Part shown: positions 1 to 7,456 of the stretch, one piece after another | Position numbering within the stretch: position 1 is the first letter of the stretch | Layout of the letters: the number at the start of each line of letters is the position of its first letter | DNA from: a virus | Virus record (IMG/VR): IMGVR_UViG_3300027596_000105 | Coordinates: 1 to 41,611 of that record | Reading direction: 5' to 3' (one strand) | Length of the DNA: 41,611 nt | Position numbers and translations under genes: made by a program | Notes under the pieces: model-generated | What the model was told of the DNA's origin: nothing | Databases searched by the model: none | Seen by the model: the letters and a program-made list of their open reading frames with translations, nothing else

Positions 1-1278
1 CTAGCCTTCAAATTGGTAGACGCCTACCTGCCCCGAATTTCTACCGAGCCGGTCTGCAGTGATAATGTTGACTTCTACCACCACCATCCCCGTCAAATGC
101 CACACAGCCGCCATCATGACCCCCATATTTAATGCAAACTCATTCGCACAGCTTTGCTTGAAGAACTCCCCCTCGAGGAACATGCAGGACCCTTTGCAGA
201 GCTGAACGACGGGGCAAGACATGCACTCTTCCCGGAACGCAAAATGCGTCGCGGTATCGAGCGCGATGGCGTCAAAATCAGCCACATGACCGATCTTGTG
301 CGCCCCCTTGGCCCCCGTGTTCTGACAGGTCATAACGTTCCCGCGCAGATCGACGGCGATGGCGTCCGGGCTGTCCATCCCGCATTTCTGGCCAAGGGCG
401 TCGATTGGCCGCCGGCGTTGGATCGAGGCGTAGAATTCGTTGATGCGCTCGCCGAGGCCGAAAGCATTCGGATCCTCGACCAGCGCTTCAAAGATCGACC
501 ACGTCAGGCTGTTCAGTTCTGCAGGCTCGAACCGCCCCGTCCCGATGGCGGTCGCGGCGTCATAAACGTTCACCACGCCCTCGAGCCCCACGACGATGTC
601 CGGTCCGACCTTTTCAGCAAACCAGGCCTTGAGGGCCCGAAGGTCGTGATTCTGGCGCGTCAGAACCGCGTTGAAGCCAGTCCTCCCCGGTCGCTCGGCC
701 AGCAGGGCTTCAATCCAGCGCCGCTTTTCGGGATCATCAAGCGGATCAGGCCCGCGCAAATGCTGCCCTGGCCCGTCATGCGAGATCGTGATGGCGATGT
801 CATGCGCGGCGATGAAGTCGAGCTTCTCGCGGTCAAGAAGTGAACCGTTGGTGATGATCGAGAAGGCTGCCCTAGGGAACCGAGCCGCAAGCGCCGGCAC
901 CAACCGCTTGATCTTGGCCCAATACAAAAATGGCTCCCCGCCCCAAAGCTCAATCTTCTCCGGGGCTTGGGCAATCCAGCCGTCGAGCTCGGTCAAGAAG
1001 TGCTCGACATCCGCCAGCTTTGAGACCGTGGCATCCGCGATCTGGAAAGCCTGACTGCAATAGGCGCAGGCATAGTTGCACGACAGGCCCAGCTGGATTT
1101 TGAGCACCCGAGGCGCGCGGGATTTTCCGAGGGGCTTGTCTTTGGCCACCCGGGCGACCTGCGCGAAGGTTCCCGGGCTAACAGGCAGCGGCAGCCCCTC
1201 ACATTCCGAGGTGTGCGGGTTGTAGCGGACGGAATGCCGGCTGCCATCCCGCGCTTCCAGCGTCAAATCAAACCACAT
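1..1278 (-). CDS. Radical SAM/SPASM maturase-like enzyme
   Basis: A 425-aa radical-SAM enzyme expected to cleave S-adenosylmethionine and modify a peptide or protein. The AdoMet cluster motif CX3CX2C is at C67, C71 and C74 and is followed by a GGEP motif at about 113-116. The C-terminal half carries a complete SPASM signature: C299-X13-G-X4-C318, then C352-X2-C355-X5-C361-X3-C365 and C377, enough for two auxiliary [4Fe-4S] clusters. SPASM proteins include sactionine/thioether RiPP maturases, PqqE and anaerobic sulfatase maturases. The stop codon is at base 1. The ATG overlaps the stop of the upstream oxygenase by one base (TGATG), so the two are translationally coupled. It is the last gene of the late operon in this window. 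Enzyme class is sure; substrate is inferred to be a phage protein, the adjacent Cys-rich small protein being the best candidate. Confidence 0.9.
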   Translation of the reverse strand: MWFDLTLEARDGSRHSVRYNPHTSECEGLPLPVSPGTFAQVARVAKDKPLGKSRAPRVLKIQLGLSCNYACAYCSQAFQIADATVSKLADVEHFLTELDGWIAQAPEKIELWGGEPFLYWAKIKRLVPALAARFPRAAFSIITNGSLLDREKLDFIAAHDIAITISHDGPGQHLRGPDPLDDPEKRRWIEALLAERPGRTGFNAVLTRQNHDLRALKAWFAEKVGPDIVVGLEGVVNVYDAATAIGTGRFEPAELNSLTWSIFEALVEDPNAFGLGERINEFYASIQRRRPIDALGQKCGMDSPDAIAVDLRGNVMTCQNTGAKGAHKIGHVADFDAIALDTATHFAFREECMSCPVVQLCKGSCMFLEGEFFKQSCANEFALNMGVMMAAVWHLTGMVVVEVNIITADRLGRNSGQVGVYQFEG

Positions 1279-1904
1279 CAGTCAAAAAGCCTTTCTTCGA
1301 TCACCACGGGTAGGTTGACGCGGAAGTTCGCGACGACCTGTACATGCGGTGCGCTGCCCTCGTAGGGGTGCTGGTTGTGGGGAATGTGGGAGGGGAAGAA
1401 GACTGAGAGCCCTGGTCGCGGATTGACCGTGTAGCCGTGGCGGCTCTCATAGGGCAGCCGCCCCTCATCGAAGTAGCGCGACGGATCCTCGATCACGAAG
1501 CGCGGACTGCCGACGGAGTTCACCGGCTGGCCTGCCCCGCCACCGGTGAGGAAGTGCACGCAAGTGAGGTCCCCCTCCCGGCTGTCCTTGTGGGTCGAGA
1601 TGAAGCCGCCCGGCTCAATGACGAGGGCGCGGTTCTCGCAATGGTGGGGGTCGAGGTATTGGGCCCAGGGGCCGAGCACGGCGCGCGCGCAGGCGAAGAG
1701 GTGGGATTTCAGGGCTTGGCCGGCTTCACTACGCTCGAGAATGCCCCGCACTCGGCGCTCGGCCGCAGACAGGCGCGTAGAATTGCCCGTTACAGCCGCG
1801 ATTGCTTCGTCGGCAAGCCGCCGGTTAACGTCCCAGTCCACCGGCGTTTCAAAGAAGGTGACCCACGTCGGCCAGAGCTCCAAAGTGGTGCTGCGAACTT
1901 CCAT
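1278..1904 (-). CDS. 2OG-Fe(II) oxygenase (HxD...H type), tail-cassette copy B
   Basis: A 208-aa protein of the prolyl-4-hydroxylase-like 2-oxoglutarate/Fe(II) dioxygenase fold. The iron triad is visible as H105-x-D107 (GGFISTHKDSRE) and a distal histidine, probably H176, in PSHIPHNQHPYEG. R195 (ANFRVN) is the likely 2-oxoglutarate anchor. Such enzymes hydroxylate protein side chains or small molecules. I chose the ATG at 1904, two bases after the stop of the 102-aa gene; a GTG three codons upstream is possible. It sits between the Cys-rich small protein and the radical-SAM gene, which argues for a role in modifying a protein made by the same operon. It is only distantly similar to the second oxygenase (2205-2945), with a different proximal metal motif. 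Confidence 0.85.
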   Translation of the reverse strand: MEVRSTTLELWPTWVTFFETPVDWDVNRRLADEAIAAVTGNSTRLSAAERRVRGILERSEAGQALKSHLFACARAVLGPWAQYLDPHHCENRALVIEPGGFISTHKDSREGDLTCVHFLTGGGAGQPVNSVGSPRFVIEDPSRYFDEGRLPYESRHGYTVNPRPGLSVFFPSHIPHNQHPYEGSAPHVQVVANFRVNLPVVIEERLFD

Positions 1905-1906
1905 GG

Positions 1907-2215
1907 TCAGCACCGGCAGGCACAGTTGCAGTTGAAGGTTTTGCGGTTGGCCGTGATGGTGACCACTCCGGTTGAGCCGCCGCCTGAGAGGCTTTCAACG
2001 TAGCAGTTGTAGGTCGTGGTTCCGCTGAAGTTTGTGTTGATGGTGCCCGTTCCATAGACAGCGGTTGTGCCGGCTCCGCCAGAGGTGGGAACCCCGTTCA
2101 CGACAGTCACATCCGTGACATCGCCCGTGCCGATGACCGGTTTATTGGTGATCCGCGCCCAGTCGATAAGTCCGGTATCGTCGATCACGATGGTTGTTCC
2201 GACCTTATAAGCCAT
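1907..2215 (-). CDS. 102-aa small protein with C-terminal CxCxCxC tail, candidate modification substrate
   Basis: Small protein with two parts. Residues 1-28 contain VIDDTGLIDWARITNKP, a phrase that from memory resembles N-terminal segments of phage fibre proteins. Residues 29-90 are rich in Gly, Thr, Val and Asn and look like beta structure. The chain ends in KTFNCNCACRC, giving cysteines at 96, 98, 100 and 102, with one more at 71. The ATG at 2215 overlaps the end of the upstream oxygenase gene by 11 bases, and the downstream oxygenase starts two bases after its stop, so it is embedded in the enzyme operon. The size, position and cysteine-dense C terminus suit a RiPP-like precursor or a small tail-tip protein modified by the adjacent radical-SAM and 2OG enzymes; an alternative is an unmodified metal-binding tip. 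No function is established. Confidence 0.75.
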   Translation of the reverse strand: MAYKVGTTIVIDDTGLIDWARITNKPVIGTGDVTDVTVVNGVPTSGGAGTTAVYGTGTINTNFSGTTTYNCYVESLSGGGSTGVVTITANRKTFNCNCACRC

Positions 2216-2945
2216 GGCTGCCTCCTTGCGCCTGATGGGCCAGGATCTCCGTGAGACCTGCCTTGCAGTGAGAATTGGGAAGGTCGAGCGCACAAAGGAC
2301 TGGTATGCACATCCGCTCCTCGCCCTCGAAGTAGGTACTGTCGTGGGGAACATGCCCTTCGAAGATGAGCATTGAGCCCGTCCTTGGTTCGACCGCATAC
2401 CAGCCGCCAGTGTAGGCGTCCGGGTTGCGACAGGGCCAAAGCCGCTTGCCGACATTTGCCGGATCATAGAAGCGCACCGCCCCGCGATGAAGCGAGGTCC
2501 CCGGGCAATCGGTGTCCAGCACCACACGCGGGTAATAGGTACAGACGATGTCGGTCTGGATATGAGTGTGGGTGTTAATGCCGACGTTCTCGCGCAACGA
2601 CCTACGCTGCCAGAAGGTATCCGACATCATGCGGATGTCGCCGGTGTAATCGTATCCATAGGCCAGTTGCAAATATTCCCGTACGCCAGCCGCCACCATC
2701 TGCGCCAGCACCGCAAGCGCCGTGTCCTGCCGGTCCATCAGGAAGTTATGGCGCAGATGCCCGAGGTGGTTGGTCTGGTCGCCGACATTGCGCCCATCCC
2801 CCGCCTCCCGGATGCGATTGGCCTCGGCATCCTCTGCCGCCAGCGCGTGTAGGCGGTCATTGAAGCCATCGGGCATCTCCCAATGCTTGTGCAGCACAAA
2901 GCTTGGATAGATCAGCTGGAATTCACTCGTGGTTGCGATTTCCAT
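2205..2945 (-). CDS. 2OG-Fe(II) oxygenase, tail-cassette copy A
   Basis: A 246-aa protein resembling the 'putative 2OG-Fe(II) oxygenase' group (PF13759-like). A proximal histidine cluster at H126/H128 (NTHTHIQTD, with D132) and a distal FEGHVPHDSTYFEGEER segment with H201 and R211 match the metal and 2-oxoglutarate sites of that group. The intervening strands include a YYP turn and a FYDP motif, as is usual there. It starts on an ATG overlapping the stop of the 300-aa gene by one base. It could hydroxylate the upstream 300-aa protein, a fibre tip, or the downstream Cys-rich small protein. Family placement is fairly sure; the exact metal ligands (HxH versus HxHxxxD) need a structural model. 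Confidence 0.8.
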   Translation of the reverse strand: MEIATTSEFQLIYPSFVLHKHWEMPDGFNDRLHALAAEDAEANRIREAGDGRNVGDQTNHLGHLRHNFLMDRQDTALAVLAQMVAAGVREYLQLAYGYDYTGDIRMMSDTFWQRRSLRENVGINTHTHIQTDIVCTYYPRVVLDTDCPGTSLHRGAVRFYDPANVGKRLWPCRNPDAYTGGWYAVEPRTGSMLIFEGHVPHDSTYFEGEERMCIPVLCALDLPNSHCKAGLTEILAHQAQGGSHGL

Positions 2946-3847
2946 CAGATGACCTCCAGCACGATCTTGCCGATCGCGGTGTAATGCTCGGTGTTGAGCT
3001 TCACGGCGATGCTGTCGCCTGGAGAGAGACCCAGCGCCTCGATGGCAAAGCTGCCCGTGCCATCAGCGGCAGTGACCAGACGGCGTTTCGGCAGATAGCC
3101 CGCGTCGCTTTCCAGTTTCAGCGCGATGGCATGGGCAAAGGCTGAACCATCCGCGTTCCACCTGAGCGCGACAGGCACATCCACCCGACCGCCGGCTGGC
3201 ACGGTGGCAGCCTCTGGGCCCAAGGCGTGGAAGTAGAACTGCTTGTACCAAAGCCCGTCCTTCGGGATCGAAGCATCGTCGATCGTGCCCGCTTGCACTG
3301 TGCCGTTCAGCAAAATCGGCGGGATTTGGCACAGGACCTCGATCCGGGCCTGATCGAAGGGCACCACCACAGGCAGAAACACCACCAGCGCGTTCGAGAT
3401 GCCTTCGAGTGCCCTGTACCGGAACGAAGTGTCGATCTTCTCGCGGGCGGATCTGGCAAAACGGTTCCGCCACGAGAGCGGCCGGCCGTCAGCGCCGACA
3501 GCCATGTCGATCAGCGCGTGATCGACGATTTCGTCATGACCCCGCATGCCGGTCGCAAAGAGACCAGATCGGCCCTTGTAGATCGCCCCCATCGGCGCGT
3601 CAGGAAGGTCCGGGATAAAACATTCATTGTGGGCCAGATCCACAAAGCCCGCCTGATTGCCAAAGGCAGGCCGAGCCTCGAGATGCGGCAGAAGATCTGC
3701 CCAGAGCATGACCCCGCCCATGCCAGTTGCCGTACCAGGGTTTGCGAACTCGAAGACGGCAATCGAGACATAGTCTGGTTTGACATCGACCGCGTAATGG
3801 CGCGGCACTCCGCAATTGGTGATGGCATAAAGCCCGGTCTCGATCAT
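2945..3847 (-). CDS. Unknown 300-aa protein downstream of the tail fibre
   Basis: I do not recognise the family. The N-terminal 200 residues form a mixed alpha/beta region without signal peptide or membrane segment. The last 95 residues (from about GPEAATVPAGGRVDVPV) look like a beta-sandwich ending in a VLEVI strand, similar in style to phage carbohydrate-binding or Ig-like modules. It overlaps the preceding S74 fibre gene by 4 bases and the following oxygenase by 1, so it is co-translated with both. Its position makes it a possible fibre-associated receptor-binding or accessory tail protein, and a possible substrate for the two oxygenases. Coding status is well supported by the coupled frame and length; function is unknown. 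Confidence 0.7.
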   Translation of the reverse strand: MIETGLYAITNCGVPRHYAVDVKPDYVSIAVFEFANPGTATGMGGVMLWADLLPHLEARPAFGNQAGFVDLAHNECFIPDLPDAPMGAIYKGRSGLFATGMRGHDEIVDHALIDMAVGADGRPLSWRNRFARSAREKIDTSFRYRALEGISNALVVFLPVVVPFDQARIEVLCQIPPILLNGTVQAGTIDDASIPKDGLWYKQFYFHALGPEAATVPAGGRVDVPVALRWNADGSAFAHAIALKLESDAGYLPKRRLVTAADGTGSFAIEALGLSPGDSIAVKLNTEHYTAIGKIVLEVI

Positions 3848-4437
3848 GGCGCGGTCCTTTTCAGCTGATCGACCTCTTGGGCGAGGTCCTTGATGGCCTC
3901 GACGAGGAGGCCCACGAGATTGCCATAAGCGAGGCGCAGCACGCCTTCGGCTTCGATCACGGCCTCCGGCGCGACCGCATGGACCTCTTGCGCGATGAGG
4001 CCCATCTGCCGCACATCGCTGCCCGCCATGGTGAAGGTGACGCCGGTTAGCGCATGAACTTTGGCTAGCGCATCTGCGATGGGCGCGATGTCGGATTTGA
4101 GCCGTGCGTCCGAAGAGGAGACGAAGTTCGGCGCCGTGACTGTGCCGGAGAAGGTCGCCCCAGCGAGTTGCGCAAAGGCGCTCGCATGGGTGCCATCGAG
4201 AAGATCGGCATTGAGACCCGAGCCAGGCCCATCCTGCGCAGTCACCTTGGCGAAGAGTTCGGCATCGGTCATGCCGCCAGCAGTGACATCGACGATGCTC
4301 TCGACGCCGCTCGTGCTTTTCTTGAGGTAGAGCTTTCCGTCGGTCACGTTGACAGCGAGTTCCCCCAACACAAGATCAGCCGGAACTGGCGCGCGTCCAG
4401 CCACGGTGCTGCGCTTCAACAACAGGATGTTCGGCAT
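3844..4437 (-). CDS. Tail fibre with C-terminal S74 intramolecular chaperone domain
   Basis: A 197-aa fibre protein. The N terminus (LLLKRSTVAG ... LGELAVNVTDGKLYLKK) resembles phage fibre anchoring segments. The C-terminal third begins with SSDARLKSDIAPI and continues through GLIAQEV and a coiled-coil end (LVEAIKDLAQEVDQLK). This is the Peptidase_S74 / endosialidase chaperone domain, which trimerises the fibre and usually cleaves itself at the Ser of the SSDxRLK motif. A short GATFSGTVTAPNF fibre strand precedes it. It starts two bases after the stop of the long fibre gene, and its stop overlaps the start of the 300-aa gene. A second protein with the same C-terminal domain lies at 9178-9837. 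Confidence 0.88.
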   Translation of the reverse strand: MPNILLLKRSTVAGRAPVPADLVLGELAVNVTDGKLYLKKSTSGVESIVDVTAGGMTDAELFAKVTAQDGPGSGLNADLLDGTHASAFAQLAGATFSGTVTAPNFVSSSDARLKSDIAPIADALAKVHALTGVTFTMAGSDVRQMGLIAQEVHAVAPEAVIEAEGVLRLAYGNLVGLLVEAIKDLAQEVDQLKRTAP

Positions 4438-6772: not shown

Positions 6773-7456
6773 ATGGATCAGGACGACGAACGGCTCGACC
6801 GTCTGGAAGAACTCTTGCAGGCGCTGCCCGTCGAGAACGAACCGATGACAGTGAGCGAGCTCGATGGTTTTATGACGGGACTTCTGGCCTGTCCCGAGAT
6901 GATCCCGCCTTCGGACTGGCTCTCACAGGTCTGGGGCGTCACGGGGGACGCACAATTCCCCGACCTCGCCACGGCCCAAGAGACGATCGGGGCGGTGATG
7001 GCCCATTACAACGATGTCGCTGCCCGGATCACGCAATCGCTCTGGGTCGAACCGATCTACGAGATCGATACGAACAGCGACGAGACCCTCTGGGAGCCTT
7101 GGGTTGACGGCTTCACACGCGCCATGGCTTTGCGGCCCAAGGCCTGGGAAGAGCTGCTGGACCGGGCCGACAACGAGGCCCGCGAGACCATGATATTCAT
7201 CATGGCGCTGCAGGACATCTACATCGGGAACAGCAAGTTCAGCGATGAAGAGATCGACCAGATCGATGAAGAGGCCCCCGATTTGATCCCGAACTGCGTG
7301 GCGACGATCCTGCACCAGTCACGCCCCGAACTGGCCCGCGCGATGCCTGCCAATCTCCCCGGCCAGCCGTTCAAATCGGAGCCCAAGACAGGTCGCAACG
7401 ATCATTGCCCCTGCGGCTCGGGTCGCAAATACAAGCAGTGCTGCGGCAAGAACTGA
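6773..7456 (+). CDS. YecA/UPF0149 family protein with SEC-C zinc motif
   Basis: A 227-aa plus-strand protein inside a block of minus-strand late genes. Residues 5-180 fit the UPF0149/YecA fold (LDRLEELL ... [22 protein letters not shown] ... WVDGFTRAM). The C terminus is a SEC-C metal-binding motif ([18 protein letters not shown]), the same zinc module as at the end of SecA. GGGAGG lies just upstream of the ATG. The stop is 16 bases from the convergent Rz1 gene. Bacteria encode such proteins outside phages, so this is probably a cargo gene (moron) with its own promoter, perhaps interacting with Sec or ribosomes; the function is not established. Confidence 0.88.

Follow-up and report, generated by a model that had tools for sequence, protein, structure and literature searches.

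A candidate tail-fibre-tip maturation cassette with a radical SAM/SPASM enzyme in a provirus-like viral genome

Introduction

RumMC2, CteB, and PapB, maturases of sactipeptides and ranthipeptides, are described enzymes comparable to the one encoded at the left end of the window, a 41,611-base stretch of DNA that is the entire IMG/VR virus record IMGVR_UViG_3300027596_000105 and is provirus-like. The window cassette encodes a radical S-adenosylmethionine (SAM)/SPASM enzyme, two 2-oxoglutarate (2OG) oxygenase-like proteins, a 300-aa partner (P300), and a 102-aa protein that ends in a run with Cys at every second position, written (xC)n below. The window enzyme and these maturases have the CxxxCxxC motif and the SPASM cysteines in common, and in both settings the enzyme gene lies beside one whose product has a C-terminal run rich in Cys. 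Acceptors described for the maturases include Asn and Ala at CxC donors; in RumC2, the CxC donors Cys22 and Cys24 are bridged to Asn35 and Glu31, and Ala is accepted as an acceptor (PMC8188230), which is a precedent for Cys thioethers to Asn or Ala. The substrate differs, being a small secreted peptide in the described systems and a predicted phage tail-fibre tip here. The window cassette also has no exporter or protease, and its enzyme leaves little room for a ribosomally synthesized and post-translationally modified peptide (RiPP) recognition element (RRE).

The anaerobic sulfatase-maturating enzyme anSME and QhpD also have a SPASM domain and use radical chemistry to modify, after translation, a large protein whose gene is close by, but their targets are sulfatases or an amine dehydrogenase rather than virion proteins, and the motif is different. 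The tip of the T4 long tail fibre, gp37, likewise has alternating metal-capable residues at its C terminus, but these are His rather than Cys, and no dedicated modifying enzyme is known for them. A Hint domain of the bacterial intein-like kind directly follows the run in some loci, although not in the window; its role in such fibres would be to uncover a modified end rather than to splice. The cultured Achromobacter phages JWF and 2-1 encode a phrog_1802 protein of the same family as the window enzyme (39-40% identity over 81-85%) that is likewise placed behind an (NC)n fibre gene, but their fibre carries a Hint domain and is separated from the enzyme by a different gene. No description of the function of this protein was found in the papers searched. 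The authors of the pelagimyophage study noted radical SAM cassettes in the host-recognition region and left them unexplained, and the open-access papers searched mention phage radical SAM genes only as metabolic or unexplained. An earlier sequence-only reading of the window had known of no described phage system with this gene set, and none was found in that literature.

Many bacterial viruses end a tail fibre in (N/A/D-C)n and carry a radical SAM enzyme beside it. Judged by this linkage, the window cassette is quite probably a tail-fibre-tip maturation cassette.

Results

The minus-strand tail operon of the window closes with six overlapping genes, S74, P300, 2OG-A, 102-aa, 2OG-B, and radical SAM. 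The features are as follows.

1..1278, minus strand: radical SAM/SPASM enzyme, 425 aa, with CxxxCxxC and seven SPASM cysteines; phrog_1802
1278..1913, minus strand: 2OG-B, 2OG-Fe(II) oxygenase-like, 211 aa, GTG start, with an HxD...H metal triad
1907..2215, minus strand: 102-aa putative fibre-tip protein, predicted substrate, with a profile match to other (xC)n tip proteins
1910..1933, minus strand: C-terminal (xC)n run NCNCACRC, predicted modification site, with invariant columns in relatives
2205..2945, minus strand: 2OG-A, 2OG-Fe(II) oxygenase-like (PF13759-like), 246 aa, with an HxH...H metal triad
2945..3847, minus strand: P300, 300-aa partner protein, with a novel N-terminal domain and an immunoglobulin (Ig)-like C-terminal domain
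3844..4437, minus strand: S74 (endosialidase-type chaperone) fibre protein, 197 aa, directly upstream of P300
4440..6080, minus strand: tail-fibre protein, 546 aa, in the same operon as the cassette

The open reading frame (ORF) coordinates agree with the sequence-only reading that five coupled genes run on from an S74 fibre gene and that the 102-aa protein has a CxCxCxC end (its C terminus is NCNCACRC). All of these genes are on the minus strand. That reading had the genes joined by overlaps or gaps of 1-11 bases. The overlaps are there and the gaps are not: radical SAM and 2OG-B overlap by 1 base, 2OG-B and 102-aa by 7, 102-aa and 2OG-A by 11, 2OG-A and P300 by 1, and P300 and S74 by 4.

At least 24 related phages, with 67-95% identity in the radical SAM protein, share the gene set. 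Failure of the five genes to co-occur had been named as grounds for abandoning the proposal, and co-occurrence is strong across relatives. Near distant relatives of the enzyme (36-49% identity), proteins again end in runs, for example NCNCNCNCLC, NCACACACACGK, or NCNCDCNCDCNCACND. Of 124 radical SAM loci that include 3 kb or more of upstream sequence, 105 carry a same-strand (xC)4+ run between -8 and +4 kb, nearly always within 4 kb upstream. Opposite-strand (xC)4+ runs gave 10 locus counts among the same 124. In several of the 19 loci without an (xC)4+ run, the tail is shorter or irregular (for example, CDCANC or NCNCNCANCDCSTC). Clustering of the enzyme at 90% identity gave 79 clusters, 66 of which have an (xC)n run, although one of these (L126, CCFCSC) seems spurious. 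P300 is present in 51 of the 79 clusters, a 2OG gene in 47, and S74 in 35, and a Hint domain (PF05203/PF01079) stands straight after the run in 7, as it does in JWF. The usual order is fibre(xC), P300, 2OG, enzyme; in the clade of the window it is S74, P300, 2OG, xC, 2OG, enzyme. By locus content, the core pair is the enzyme and the (xC)n protein, and the 300-aa and 2OG genes are frequent yet optional. This adjacency bears on the idea that the cassette genes have nothing to do with the fibre and serve auxiliary metabolism or host takeover. PHROGs classes the 2OG family as moron/auxiliary, and the authors of the CP220 study took the radical SAM genes of that phage, whose same-family status is not shown, as metabolic (PMC2853527). 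With (xC)n fibre genes adjacent in 66 of 79 clusters, an auxiliary role is extremely unlikely.

A scan blind to the enzyme was used for the converse comparison. DNA encoding NCNCNCNC was sought in 2.9 million viral contigs, and the ORFs kept were 60 aa or longer and had the run no more than 20 residues from the C terminus. The enzyme family is present at 69 of the 88 plausible genes, always on the same strand and downstream at 68 (among the matches listed). The 19 genes without the enzyme all have 3.7 kb or less of downstream sequence, their loci being cut off nearby. A control scan for NHNHNHNH found the enzyme in 0 of 120 loci. Most runs end 0-4 residues before the stop codon, and the x position is occupied mostly by N (210), A (77), or D (39). 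Synonymous codons are mixed in 50 of 56 runs, which indicates selection on the protein rather than a DNA repeat and rules out (NC)n as a DNA microsatellite. The arrangement is of the RiPP type, with a conserved precursor-like gene that has a conserved modifiable run beside the enzyme.

A second class of small proteins ends in HTHxFxDDYSTACNCNCNCNC (L193, L199, L232, L240, and L256). In L193 and L232, a distant radical SAM protein (~170 bits) is encoded several kb from the HTHxFxDDYSTACNCNCNCNC protein. A tblastn search of an HTHxxDDY-type small protein against cultured phages returned nothing.

Profile searches place the window enzyme in the radical SAM superfamily (PF04055, E = 3.5e-9, above the cut-off) and the SPASM subfamily (TIGR04085, 31.5 bits against a cut-off of 27), and residues 45-385 match the phrog_1802 profile with E = 2.5e-53. 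The CxxxCxxC motif reads CNYACAYC; this motif and all seven SPASM cysteines are invariant in 26 diverse relatives. None of the named NCBIfam RiPP maturases (nif11, PapB, SCIFF, anSME, and others) reached its equivalog cut-off among the best 25 of 51 matches, the top scores there being 66.3 bits against a cut-off of 518.7 for nif11 and 65.9 against 340 for PapB. By profile, the nearest solved structures include 8vpo, anSME, and the thioether-forming enzyme CteB (5wgg). Profile alignment leaves ~50 residues ahead of the radical SAM core in the window enzyme, and the CteB core begins at about residue 90.

The presence of anSME among these structures is consistent with an enzyme that modifies the tip to a non-thioether product, such as formylglycine from Cys, alternate-residue epimerisation giving a D,L-alternating beta-helix, or C-methylation. 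The JWF enzyme is annotated as an anaerobic sulfatase-maturating enzyme, and the strict i,i+2 alternation of the run would suit a helix of alternating chirality or a row of reactive aldehydes. The CxPxR sulfatase motif is absent, however, and among the best 25 of 51 NCBIfam matches nif11-type and PapB (ranthipeptide) maturases score highest, though far below cut-off. A non-thioether product is less likely than a thioether, with formylglycine and epimerisation as serious alternatives.

Outside phages, enzymes from Variovorax, Ramlibacter, and a gammaproteobacterium (L125, L127, L128, L130, and L141) form a coherent clade on the tree and lack an (xC)n fibre. The enzyme relative in Variovorax L130 adjoins a YcaO-nitroreductase fusion and an ATP-grasp-like protein; the one in Sulfuritalea L177, a locus also without an (xC)n fibre, has a C39-peptidase ABC exporter nearby. 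Such neighbours are hallmarks of RiPP clusters. Both settings are apparently undescribed RiPP clusters, and the placement of enzyme relatives in them supports peptide modification as the activity of the family. These relatives are left unexplained if the CxCxC run binds metal or iron-sulphur at the fibre tip, as the HxH sites of T4 gp37 bind iron, and the enzymes act elsewhere. Alternating residues on one face of a beta-strand at the C terminus of a fibre do resemble metal-binding trimer tips, but metal binding also fails to account for an enzyme beside the run, downstream on the same strand at 68 of 88 genes among the matches listed and at none of the NHNHNHNH loci. Metal binding in place of modification is improbable; both could be true of the same tip.

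The proteins that carry the runs were compared with domain families. The L066 carrier has a T7 tail-fibre N-terminal domain (PF03906) and collagen repeats followed by the (xC)n run, collagen repeats are also found in carriers L143, L154, and L031, and further carriers match PHROG tail-fibre families. By these domains, the carriers of (xC)n runs are bona fide tail fibres. In the cultured phages JWF and 2-1, the (NC)n of the fibre is followed at once by a Hint domain (CFPAGT...), and one gene separates the fibre gene from phrog_1802. The run of the JWF fibre, gp28, reads NCNCDCNCNCS, and no homologue of the 2OG proteins or of P300 was identified in JWF. A Hint domain directly follows the run in the tail fibres of L108 (5676-7124), L031, L062, L068, L159, L167, L171, and L175. 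The Hint label switches at least 5 times on the enzyme tree, which indicates that Hint-bearing and Hint-free fibres interconvert. Hint domains cleave at their first Cys, and if this occurs here, the run becomes the C terminus again. In L070 (9303-10220), L073, L076, L077, and L081, the (xC)n run is followed by a C-terminal domain of ~175 aa that is not Hint; the L070 protein has no Pfam match.

The 102-aa protein has no match in the protein family libraries, and tblastn against cultured phages returned nothing. In close relatives, the small protein is always sited between the two 2OG genes. Its N terminus (MAYKVGTTIVIDDxGxVxWxRIxxxP) and C-terminal NCNC-x-C-x-C are invariant and the middle varies in length and sequence; the C-terminal columns N95, C96, N97, C98, C100, and C102 are invariant in 29 relatives. 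The family matches other short tip proteins by profile with 99% probability. When it was aligned with the C termini of long fibres by hhalign, only a 16-residue WxxIxxKP patch aligned, so homology to the long fibres is confined to that patch.

The predicted structure of P300 is of high confidence (predicted local distance difference test, pLDDT, 91.9). A fold search against the PDB left the N-terminal domain unmatched and gave only partial, Ig-like matches; the best full-length fold match is an uncharacterised Caudovirales protein (template modelling score 0.83). Single-sequence matches of the 2OG proteins are weak (PF13759 below cut-off; phrog_81, E = 7e-7 and 7e-9), although all of 74 relatives keep both metal-site histidines. 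The metal site of 2OG-B is the usual HxD...H and that of 2OG-A is HxH...H, a form found in 42 of the 74 relatives of the two proteins. Runs are richer in Asn at loci with a 2OG gene (0.67 v 0.42, p = 0.0004, uncorrected for kinship), which hints that Asn may be the residue that the 2OG enzymes hydroxylate.

Besides a large terminase, portal, and tape measure, the window encodes a J-type central fibre and two S74 proteins, and its right edge, opposite the cassette at the left end, coincides with the end of a serine integrase gene. The virus is probably a temperate tailed phage. A plus-strand ORF of 227 aa (6773-7456) lies inside the minus-strand tail region, has a SEC-C-like end, and resembles host-type cargo. 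The 3' ends of the enzyme genes of most close relatives are alike up to GGGGATGGTGGTGGT, and all diverge beyond it (L002-L025, L109-L119). This pattern points to an attachment-site junction, in which case the host would encode the last enzyme residues in each lysogen, and the 3' end of the window radical SAM gene looks like it holds one:

80..94, minus strand: GACGGGGATGGTGGT, probable attachment-site junction near the 3' end of the radical SAM gene

A right-hand copy was not found within the window. A position at a probable provirus edge beside an attachment site would suit prophage cargo, with the 102-aa protein as the precursor of a secreted RiPP (a bacteriocin or signal), and the non-phage enzyme relatives lie in RiPP clusters, one with an exporter. 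However, the cassette includes no exporter or protease, which disfavours a secreted peptide; its genes extend the tail operon through overlaps, and in other phages the same run is the C terminus of full tail fibres. A secreted product is very unlikely. The sequence-only reading had proposed that a tail protein is chemically matured by the phage or that the outcome is a RiPP-like product. The tail-protein branch is favoured by runs on fibre C termini, mixed codons, and the enzyme-blind linkage; the secreted-peptide branch is disfavoured by the lack of an exporter or protease in the cassette.

Discussion

The linkage of enzyme and run suggests that the radical SAM enzyme acts on the (xC)n run, and that its target is the fibre tip and not the 300-aa protein. 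With less certainty, the product would be Cys thioethers to Asn, Ala, or Asp. In the proposed mechanism, the phage would make a tip protein with Cys at every second residue, a separate 102-aa protein in the window and a fibre C terminus elsewhere. Late in infection, the SPASM enzyme would abstract hydrogen from the x residues of the run, which would be joined to Cys sulphurs as sactionine- or ranthionine-like thioethers. The crosslinked tip would be compact and reduction-proof, and outside the cell it would remain rigid and withstand oxidation. The 2OG enzymes, one or two of them, would probably hydroxylate the x residues (Asn before others) or residues nearby in the fibre, and P300 with its Ig-like domain would probably present, cap, or co-assemble with the tip. 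In fibres with a Hint domain after the run, self-cleavage would leave the run C-terminal again. We also infer the role of P300, presence in the virion, and a benefit in host binding. The chances are about even for the broader proposal that a widespread class of tailed phages builds a thioether-crosslinked, partly hydroxylated poly-(Asn/Ala/Asp-Cys) tip that is RiPP-like, contacts the host or pierces its envelope, and in some lineages is exposed by Hint.

Several points weigh against tip maturation and its thioether chemistry. The support throughout consists of genomic linkage and motifs. Adjacent Cys and Asn are hard to bridge within one chain, and radical SAM/SPASM enzymes catalyse other reactions too, such as formylglycine formation and epimerisation. 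The space before the enzyme core appears too small for a canonical RRE peptide-binding domain, although some RiPP maturases lack an RRE. The AlphaFold model of the 102-aa protein is uninterpretable (mean pLDDT 62.7, ~31 at the tip), and kinship may contribute to the Asn enrichment at 2OG loci.

The enzyme class is known and the logic resembles RiPP maturation; what differs is the predicted substrate, a viral fibre, and that no leader removal or export is seen. Phage receptor-binding tips are not known to contain more than the 20 standard residues with metal ions or glycans. Provided that the tip chemistry holds, the chemically matured virion tip would be a new biological category. Phages would display chemically modified peptides on the virion, recombinant fibres produced without the enzyme would be unfinished, and host-range predictors would overlook a modification step. 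The proposal would give a function to phrog_1802, so far annotated by domain only, and would offer many natural substrates for a radical SAM enzyme family. It can be tested directly in the cultured phages JWF and 2-1 and in Roseobacter-group and Limnohabitans lysogens.

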